Source: Chloroflexota bacterium
GTDB lineage: Bacteria > Chloroflexota > Dehalococcoidia > Dehalococcoidales > RBG-16-60-22
Direction: 5' to 3'
Length of the DNA: 38,484 nt
NCBI GenBank assembly: GCA_016190585.1
Contig: JACPQH010000074.1
Location: 1 to 38,484, forward strand
Under the pieces are notes generated by a model. That model made no database searches and had not been told where the DNA came from. It worked only from the letters and a program-made list of their open reading frames with translations. This document shows, piece by piece, positions 36,475 through 37,752 of the stretch. How positions within the stretch are numbered: the stretch's first letter is position 1; each line of letters begins with the position of its first letter. The position numbers and the translations under genes are program-made.

Positions 36475-36486
36475 AGGAGTGAGGTG

Positions 36487-36792
36487 ATGGGAGATATTTT
36501 AAACGAGGCTTACGGGATAATGCAATGCAAGGAGTGCCCGTGGTACAAGTCCTGCGTGACGCCGCTCAGGCTCACTCCCGAGGACATACGCCGCCAGATG
36601 CAGTCCTTCCCGGGAGGCGGGGCGGGACAGGTGGATGCGGGGCTTCAGGGTCTGCTGGGGGGGATGGCGACCGCCGCGCAGAACTCCATCCTCGAGGGCT
36701 GCCCGGTATTTATCGAGCGCCTGCGCAGCAACCCCCGGCTCGCCCAGAGGCTGAAGCAGGTGATGCTCAACTGGACCGAGGAAGAAGGCTAG
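36487..36792 (+). CDS. Small Cys-motif protein of unknown function
   Basis: 101 residues. Near the N-terminus is QCKECPWYKSC (C-x2-C-x4-C), and a fourth Cys lies in LEGCPVF, so it could bind zinc or an Fe-S cluster. The middle is Gly/Gln-rich and the C-terminus helical (RLRSNPRLAQRLKQVMLNWTEEEG, in pieces). AAAGGAG stands 7 bases before the ATG at 36487; a GTG at 36484 would be too close. It follows the thioredoxin remnant by 12 bases, which hints at a redox or metal-related role. Its last 26 bases overlap the convergent epimerase-like gene. Confidence 0.75.
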   Translation: MGDILNEAYGIMQCKECPWYKSCVTPLRLTPEDIRRQMQSFPGGGAGQVDAGLQGLLGGMATAAQNSILEGCPVFIERLRSNPRLAQRLKQVMLNWTEEEG

Positions 36793-37432
36793 GCGGCGCT
36801 TTCCCCGCGAGCTCGCTCAGCCGGCGGAAGCTGCGGGCGGGGTCCGGCTGAAGAAAAATGGCGCTGCCGACATAGATCACGTCCACCCCGGTACCGGCCA
36901 CCTCCGCGATGTTGTTCTCCTTGATGCCGCCGTCGATGCCTATCTCGATGCCGGGGTGCGACCGGCGCAGTTCAGTTATCTTCCCGAGGACTTCCGGAAC
37001 GAACTTCGCCCCGTAGAAGCCCGGGTTCACCGAGAGGAGCAGCAGGCTGTCGACGCGCCCGGTAAGCCCGCGTAACGCCGCTACGGGCGTGCCGGGATTT
37101 ATGGCCACGCCGGCTTCAAGCCCCAGCTTCTTTATCCGGACGATGACCGCATCCGGGGTGGCGGTAGCTTCATAGTGAAATATTATCCGGCGGGCGCCGG
37201 CTTCGCGGAAGCCTTCGATATAGTCCTCTGGCGCCTTCACCATGAGGTGGGCTTCCCAGCGCAGCCTGGGACGCAGTCCCGCCAGGTCCCGCCAGGTGAC
37301 GCTGCGGGAGGGGACAAACTGACCGTCCATGATATCCATCTGAACATAGTCGGTAAAGGACTCTGCCTGGCGCACCATGCTCTCGAGGTCGCCGGCATTA
37401 TCGGTAAGGACGGCGGGGACGACACGGCTCAT
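36767..37432 (-). CDS. rpe: Ribulose-phosphate 3-epimerase-like protein with a substituted metal ligand
   Basis: 221 residues with the RPE barrel order: VPAVLT, DYVQMDIMDGQFVPS, WEAHLMVKAPEDY, LLLSVNPGFYGAKF, GIDGGIKENN and VGSAIF. Canonical Rpe binds Zn/Fe through His-Asp-His-Asp. Here D33, H62 and D167 are present, but the first His is Gln31 (V-Q-M-D instead of V-H-F-D), and the PSILSAD opening is PAVLTDN. It may be a divergent epimerase or a related sugar-phosphate isomerase. The ATG at 37432 fits the family start; an upstream reading to 37474 would cross the terminator. The gene is preceded directly by an attenuator-like leader and has a poor ribosome-binding site. Confidence 0.8.
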   Translation of the reverse strand: MSRVVPAVLTDNAGDLESMVRQAESFTDYVQMDIMDGQFVPSRSVTWRDLAGLRPRLRWEAHLMVKAPEDYIEGFREAGARRIIFHYEATATPDAVIVRIKKLGLEAGVAINPGTPVAALRGLTGRVDSLLLLSVNPGFYGAKFVPEVLGKITELRRSHPGIEIGIDGGIKENNIAEVAGTGVDVIYVGSAIFLQPDPARSFRRLSELAGKAPPSLLPRSS

Positions 37433-37446
37433 AAGAGAACCCCGGC

Positions 37447-37482
37447 AATAAAAAAGTGGAGGCTGCTTCCGCAACCTCCACT
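37447..37482 (-). terminator. Intrinsic terminator just before the epimerase-like gene
   Basis: On the minus strand AGTGGAGGTTGC (37482-37471) and GCAGCCTCCACT (37466-37455) form a 12-bp stem with a GGAA tetraloop, followed by TTTTTATT (37454-37447). It ends 14 bases before the start codon. It must be bypassed for the gene to be expressed from the upstream promoter, which marks it as an attenuator. Confidence 0.85.
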
Positions 37483-37520
37483 CGTCTGCCTCTCAAACCC
37501 CGCTCTAATTTCGATGATTA

Positions 37521-37562
37521 CTATCGAACGAGGAGCCAATCAAGTCTTCCTCTTTCCCTCAT
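37521..37562 (-). CDS. Second possible short ORF in the same leader
   Basis: An ATG at 37562 opens MRERGRLDWLLVR, ending in TAG. It has no convincing Shine-Dalgarno, and the codons cover the GAGGA/TCCTC stem. It may be chance; it is listed because it lies between the first leader ORF and the terminator. Confidence 0.2.
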   Translation of the reverse strand: MRERGRLDWLLVR

Positions 37563-37608
37563 CTGCCGAGCCAGGTTTGATTCCGTTGCGCCCTGTCCCC
37601 ACAGGGCA

Positions 37609-37653
37609 CTAACTGTCCACCTGGAGTACCCGGTAAATCAAGTGAAGCTTCAT
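37609..37653 (-). CDS. 14-codon leader peptide ORF in the attenuator leader
   Basis: ATG AAG CTT CAC TTG ATT and so on encodes MKLHLIYRVLQVDS, ending in TAG at 37611-37609. GGAGG stands 5 bases before the ATG, the best ribosome-binding site in the neighbourhood. Half of the residues are Leu, Ile or Val. Its end overlaps the first strong leader stem, so ribosome position could decide the fold of the RNA. No homologue is known to me. Confidence 0.5.
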   Translation of the reverse strand: MKLHLIYRVLQVDS

Positions 37654-37701
37654 ATTCACCTCCGAAGCAAATCTCAGAGAGGGTTAGGAGCTTCGTATCT
37701 C

Positions 37702-37730
37702 AAATTAACATAATCAGGGTAAATTGTCAA
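37702..37730 (-). promoter_or_regulatory. Promoter of the leader RNA and epimerase-like gene
   Basis: Minus strand TTGACA (37725-37730), 17-base spacer, TAATTT (37702-37707), a weak -10 behind a perfect -35. Its -35 bases are shared with the biotin ligase promoter on the other strand. Confidence 0.5.
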
Positions 37731-37752
37731 GGGGCACCGGTGAGGCTATAAT
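37724..37752 (+). promoter_or_regulatory. Promoter of the biotin ligase gene
   Basis: TTGTCA (37724-37729), 17-base spacer, perfect TATAAT (37747-37752). Initiation 7-8 bases downstream falls at 37759-37760, exactly where the GTG start codon of the gene is. Confidence 0.65.

Follow-up and report, generated by a model that had tools for sequence, protein, structure and literature searches.

Upstream of a ribulose-phosphate 3-epimerase (rpe) gene in a 38,484-nt Chloroflexota contig (hereafter, the window, which is the whole stretch analyzed) lies a compact stack of transcription and translation signals, and the locus raises the question of whether these form an attenuator of rpe, as a preliminary description had proposed, or belong to an RNA with a role of its own. 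The RNA is encoded on the minus strand, as are all features below unless noted, and is flanked by rpe (36767-37432; PF00834) on one side and by a divergently oriented biotin-ligase gene (PF03099) on the other. From 37730 to 37450 it comprises a promoter, a Shine-Dalgarno sequence, a 14-codon ORF, several stems and an intrinsic terminator, after which rpe follows; the anatomy first described, with its GGAGG, short ORF, stems and GGAA-loop terminator with U-tract, thus stands.

The -35 box, TTGACA (37730-37725), is a perfect match, and the -10 region (around 37709-37702) is weak, with GTTAAT as the best candidate (spacing 15) ahead of TTAATT (16) and TAATTT (17); a stricter promoter scan did not list this promoter. 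The -35 box is overlapped at 37725-37730 by a plus-strand promoter of the biotin-ligase gene, TTGTCA-17-TATAAT (11/12 matches; 37724-37752), so the two promoters may compete. The Shine-Dalgarno sequence GGAGG (37663-37659) is nearly invariant in the 88 copies described below, each G being conserved in at least 98% and the A in 95%. It precedes the ORF MKLHLIYRVLQVDS (37653-37609, stop included), for which the family consensus is M[RK]LHxx[FY]GVWQVD(S) before the stop. The window peptide reads RVLQVD where the consensus has GVWQVD, differing at two of the six core positions and lacking both the G and the W. Six bases separate the GAC (Asp) codon from the start of hairpin P2 (37590-37607; GCCCTGT/ACAGGGC with a GGGG loop). 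Beyond it lies a three-way-junction domain (37493-37580), which is closed by helix P3 (37580-37568 with 37505-37493) and in which the covariation alignment places two internal hairpins, P4 (helix 5; 37530-37552) and P5 (helices 6-7; 37510-37528), the latter with GTAAT in its loop. The terminator, with a GGAA loop, spans 37483-37454 including G-T ends (core stem 37481-37456) and runs into six U residues (37455-37450). The last of these is 17 nt before the rpe ATG, rather than the 14 bases given in the preliminary description. The 253-nt RNA has a predicted folding energy of -101.9 kcal/mol, lower than that of any of 200 shuffles (-77.6 +/- 4.6; z -5.3). On the other side of rpe, a 102-residue ORF without a Pfam match (36484-36789, plus strand) is convergent with the gene.

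The RNA matches no Rfam 15 family in the window at the gathering score (riboswitches, T-box, 6S and others), in keeping with the earlier statement that no known riboswitch consensus was found. Four weak matches at E <= 5 all fall below their gathering scores and look like chance; the best, to a viral frameshift-site model (22.3 bits against a gathering score of 53), is on the opposite strand and was taken as chance. ARAGORN gave no tmRNA match in the window. Across 20 relatives, Rfam returned four matches (5S rRNA, two tRNAs and a cobalamin riboswitch), none overlapping the RNA; the riboswitch, at L045 1835-1981 (plus strand), is close to that locus's copy on the opposite strand. The open-license text of PMC, the literature covered here, yielded no account of this RNA or of its GVWQVD peptide, and viral sequences gave no match to one exact pattern, which fits only the commonest spelling. 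The RNA belongs to an apparently undescribed small RNA gene family of Chloroflexota.

A protein search with RPE gave 43 loci. L002 and L012 carry a clearly homologous RNA directly before rpe, and in L006 and L009 it is found farther upstream with another gene between. The L012 RNA had blastn matches in 13 of 20 genomes, and the coding pattern CGGAGTNTGGCARGTNGAY, with one mismatch allowed, matched 84 times in 61 of the 156 genomes of the order, against 10 matches for the pattern read backwards. A covariance model, R1, was built from 13 copies (alignment A2), the window included, and gave 88 matches at E <= 1e-4 over 88 sources hand-picked for diversity. It scores the window RNA, one of its own 13 training rows, at 116.2 bits and the rest of the window at no more than 7.4 bits.

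In the alignment of the 88 copies, 91.8% of cells are paired compared with 81.9% in shuffles, and 323 cells have changed on both sides of a pair compared with 94, numbers to be read knowing that alignment A3 was fitted to the R1 structure and favors it, which the shuffle and slide controls answer only partly. Structures slid along the alignment pair at only 29-50%. At least one double-sided change is seen in 29 of the 35 pairs, including all 12 pairs of helices 3 and 4 and six of the seven pairs of P2, 99.2% of whose cells are paired. In a separate column-pair scan (82 rows), the ten strongest signals all coincide with proposed pairs, and P3 gains a three-pair extension; the other pairs outside the structure among the strongest ones form no helix, and none of them suggests an alternative helix, be it an antiterminator or one that a stalled ribosome would set free, the terminator itself being outside the model. 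Helix 1 lies within the ORF, hardly varies and has no covariation support, and the three-way-junction domain keeps conserved loop and junction bases. A further alignment, A4, holds 50 rows hand-picked for diversity from 82 references. By these comparisons the copies are a structured RNA family with covarying stems.

The signals that bound the RNA recur as well. A promoter-like site (at least nine of 12 matches) is present upstream of 85 of the 88 copies, compared with 12% of 298 control stretches, its -10 element ending a median of 33 nt before the model start, and a terminator stands behind the domain in 83 of the 88, compared with 5% of controls. Covarying stems and a conserved terminator, the evidence that the preliminary description had named in support of its structured RNA, are therefore both present. 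Comparison of the copies indicates an autonomous RNA gene of about 250 nt, running from its own promoter to its own terminator.

We read the ORF in 86 of the 88 copies (leaving out L058 and L181). Its core residues are conserved as G in 80, V in 86, W in 68, Q in 83, V in 79 and D in 80, so that W is absent from 18, while all four Val codons occur, as do both codons of Gln and of Asp, and His is CAC in 35 copies and CAT in 35. Third bases vary while the peptide stays, which shows coding selection on a roughly 14-residue peptide that closes with [FY]GVWQVD and a variable tail; the preliminary description had stressed its richness in Leu, Ile and Val, in place of which this motif is the conserved feature. 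The Leu codon CTT is kept in 71 of the 86 copies, which hints at an added constraint on the RNA. Masking of the Shine-Dalgarno sequence, also suggested earlier, is not borne out across the family: the window does have a stem of CGAAGC (37695-37690) with GCTTCG (37668-37663), but a stem abutting the Shine-Dalgarno sequence occurs in 16% of the 88 copies, little above the 11% in shuffles.

Beyond the Asp codon, the residues vary freely, as they would past an arrest site. The stop is the second codon after it in 56 of the 86 copies, and the tail may be a single residue or exceed 20. The ORF has in this way two sequence features of ribosome-arrest peptides, a C-terminal sequence preserved by coding selection and a tail that is free to vary. 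The hairpin, whose sequence also varies freely, above all in the second form described below, starts 6-7 nt past the Asp codon in 75 of 99 distinct copies with exact GVWQVD codons, at least one of which (L126) is a chance match inside a gene; starts were allowed only 2-12 nt after Asp. Against mononucleotide shuffles, 76 of the 99 hairpins score above the 95th percentile. With the usual ribosome footprint, the hairpin would be at the mRNA entrance while the Asp is being placed.

These features bear on the possibility that the locus is simply a micropeptide gene, its peptide (e.g., a signal or a small regulator) being the product and the structured RNA a stabilizing 3' untranslated region. Strong coding conservation and a dedicated promoter and terminator would suit such a gene, but a tail of such variable length would not, nor would a peptide in which no export signal is seen by eye, and the hairpin keeps its distance from the Asp codon also in ORFs that extend into the hairpin. 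We regard this explanation as unlikely.

The family is widespread without being universal. Under a strict filter, which makes these counts underestimates, R1 matched 78 of 393 genomes drawn from the class and 31 of 400 drawn from the phylum, nine of the 31 having already matched in the class draw. It matched none of the 23 genomes of the other RPE-search loci, two of which are labeled Chloroflexota/Dehalococcoidales. A second covariance model, R2, represents the ORF-hairpin module and, with the same undercount, matched 83 of the 156 genomes of the order at E <= 1e-5 and 84 at 0.01. The 73 genomes of the order without an R2 match at 1e-5, and the two Dehalococcoidales-labeled genomes without an R1 match, indicate that the RNA is not universal even within the order. 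Among 120 Pseudomonadota genomes, R2 had no match at 1e-5 and six at 0.01 (again under the strict filter, an undercount), the top two lacking the architecture. It matched 18 of 29 genomes in a second class and three of 39 in a third, the genus groups in both having been chosen because a member had matched, as well as three of 11 in a smaller sample of the first class, and had no match in the only genome of a further class; classes were taken as different from their sizes and the genomes drawn. In the second class a different domain (CCTCAGGCTA ... TAGATGTCCTGA) follows the hairpin, which makes the ORF and hairpin the most stable part of the RNA. On the sequence matches, then, the ORF-hairpin module occurs in three classes of Chloroflexota.

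Reading frames downstream of the RNA fell into 22 clusters of at least two loci (single-locus neighbors were left out), of which nine were set aside by eye as overlapping frames, leaving 13 conserved neighborhoods. Seven of these are co-directional (rpe, rhomboid, NusA, M16 peptidase, PAC2, a lipoprotein-like gene and one unnamed) and six convergent, including a nitronate monooxygenase, an MFS transporter and, in the rpe lineage, a small membrane protein, so there is no orientation bias. Pfam confirms the rhomboid, NusA, M16, PAC2, NMO, MFS, PyrK-type and CysS neighbors, and the neighbors behind different copies share no pathway.

Where rpe does follow directly, in seven relatives among the 88 copies, it has in every case its own promoter (TTGACA-18-TACAAT or -TAGAAT) between the terminator and the gene. 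A free RNA with the gene's promoter behind the terminator is the arrangement that the preliminary description had set against its own proposal, and it holds for all seven relatives, not for the window, where the 17-nt gap between U-run and rpe contains no promoter. These promoters, and the convergent or unrelated genes elsewhere, indicate that the RNA is not in general an rpe attenuator. A leader-peptide attenuator, in which the place of the ribosome on the ORF chooses between terminator and read-through, does fit the window, with its promoterless gap and an order of ORF, stems, terminator and gene like that of leader-peptide attenuators and uORF motifs such as those of PMC8632094. The family differs from these in having no regulatory codon run, no antiterminator helix supported by the column-pair scan and no conserved downstream gene, and as an account of the RNA we consider this attenuator quite improbable. 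What stands of the original proposal is local: since no promoter fits between the terminator and rpe in the window, read-through may control the gene there as a derived state, and is probably how the gene is reached. A ligand-sensing attenuator, with the three-way-junction domain as a riboswitch-like aptamer that would govern the terminator whatever gene lies behind it, would draw on the domain's covariation in every helix, its conserved loop and junction bases and its place just before the terminator, but is made very unlikely by the six convergent neighborhoods of 13 and by the different domain behind the hairpin in the second class.

The module also exists in a second, shorter form: 28 copies lack the junction domain. 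Their ORFs (MEINRLYGVWQVD..., MKLNMLYGVWQVD...) begin a median of 124 nt ahead of the next gene. By a crude hydrophobicity rule for signal peptides, that gene has a secreted-like start in 23 of 25 cases behind the second form and in six of 23 co-directional cases behind the first form, the two counts using different distance windows. The second-form set has 29 rows, for 25 of which a script found the next gene, and one of the 29, L095, is a first-form copy (127.9 bits); the first-form set has 49 rows, namely the A3 members and eight loci named by hand. L065, L070, L078, L104, L126 and one of two L102 rows were dropped from the comparison as chance pattern matches. R1 scores reach at most 49.6 bits in the second form and run from 48.9 to 175.2 bits in the first; since these ranges meet, the forms were told apart by reading the sequences and not by score alone. 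Pfam searches of ten second-form neighbors gave a matrixin (L063), a C39-like peptidase (L099) and DUF6345 (L092) above the curated cut-off, and below it a peptidase A4, another matrixin and a PapC_C match; four of the ten had no match. The second form probably controls its secreted-protein genes in cis.

With modest confidence, we favor an autonomous Chloroflexota RNA in which an arrest or pausing peptide and the hairpin serve as a pause module, the RNA itself being the output in the first form. The ribosome would slow when the Asp codon is at or close to the P site and P2 is at the mRNA entrance, so that peptide and P2 form one pause module, and the presence of a ribosome at this place would decide whether P2 and the domain behind it fold. 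In the second form the same module stands before secreted-protein genes and probably acts in cis. The output of the first form would be the RNA, whether or not it carries its ribosome, and it would work in trans or as a sensor. As for rpe in the window, the gene has come to lie directly behind the terminator and probably depends on read-through.

Dual-function small RNAs with a short ORF include SgrS, SR1 and RNAIII. Judged from sequence, our family has the defining features of this group, a promoter and terminator of its own and a predicted translated short ORF, and it resembles these three in being a free-standing transcript that also carries an ORF; unlike in them, conservation is greatest in the ORF and in the spacing of the hairpin. 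TnaC and SecM belong, with ErmBL, to the ribosome-arrest leader peptides. ErmBL is the closest proven counterpart in kind: it stalls at the Asp of RNVDK, with Arg7 and Val9-Lys11 critical (PMC4935803). The [W/R]QVD of our family resembles that motif, with arrest at Asp being our proposal here, and the two share a very short ORF, a strong Shine-Dalgarno sequence, conserved C-terminal residues and free residues beyond the site. Unlike ErmBL, the RNA is in most cases not a leader but a free transcript that ends at a terminator of its own, its hairpin keeps a fixed spacing, and no rRNA methyltransferase or other resistance gene is among the neighbors named.

A bolder version of the favored reading is possible, although we would sooner doubt than accept it: a family spanning the phylum, with members in three classes or more, where the regulator or sensor is a ribosome halted on a free RNA by a near-invariant hexapeptide and a precisely spaced hairpin, with the module copied before genes for exported proteins, some of them likely proteases, that share the signal. 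Such a regulon would be defined by a nascent peptide and not by a DNA-binding protein. Should the favored reading hold, a largely uncultured bacterial phylum has a conserved, ribosome-coupled RNA that Rfam 15 lacks, with an ORF so short that ordinary gene calling passes it over. The constant spacing of peptide and hairpin yields a model of joint pausing by nascent chain and mRNA structure that can be tested directly, and the modules ahead of exported-protein genes point to a regulon that is open to immediate test.

Several individual neighborhoods have features of their own. L092 and, with three copies, L097 have second-form modules in tandem, each followed by a gene for a secreted protein, and genes upstream of the module in L055, L061, L093, L125, L096 and L128 resemble, by eye, response regulators or a sigma or anti-sigma factor. 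A nusA gene stands co-directionally behind the RNA in L142 and L153, with a NusA_N domain in L142, and is a neighbor worth mention, since hairpin pausing and termination are processes on which NusA acts. In one distant lineage (L176, L180, L196, L197, L198 and L203), a gene read as pyrE, from a phosphoribosyltransferase match just under the Pfam cut-off in L198, lies close behind the RNA, so control in cis is possible there.
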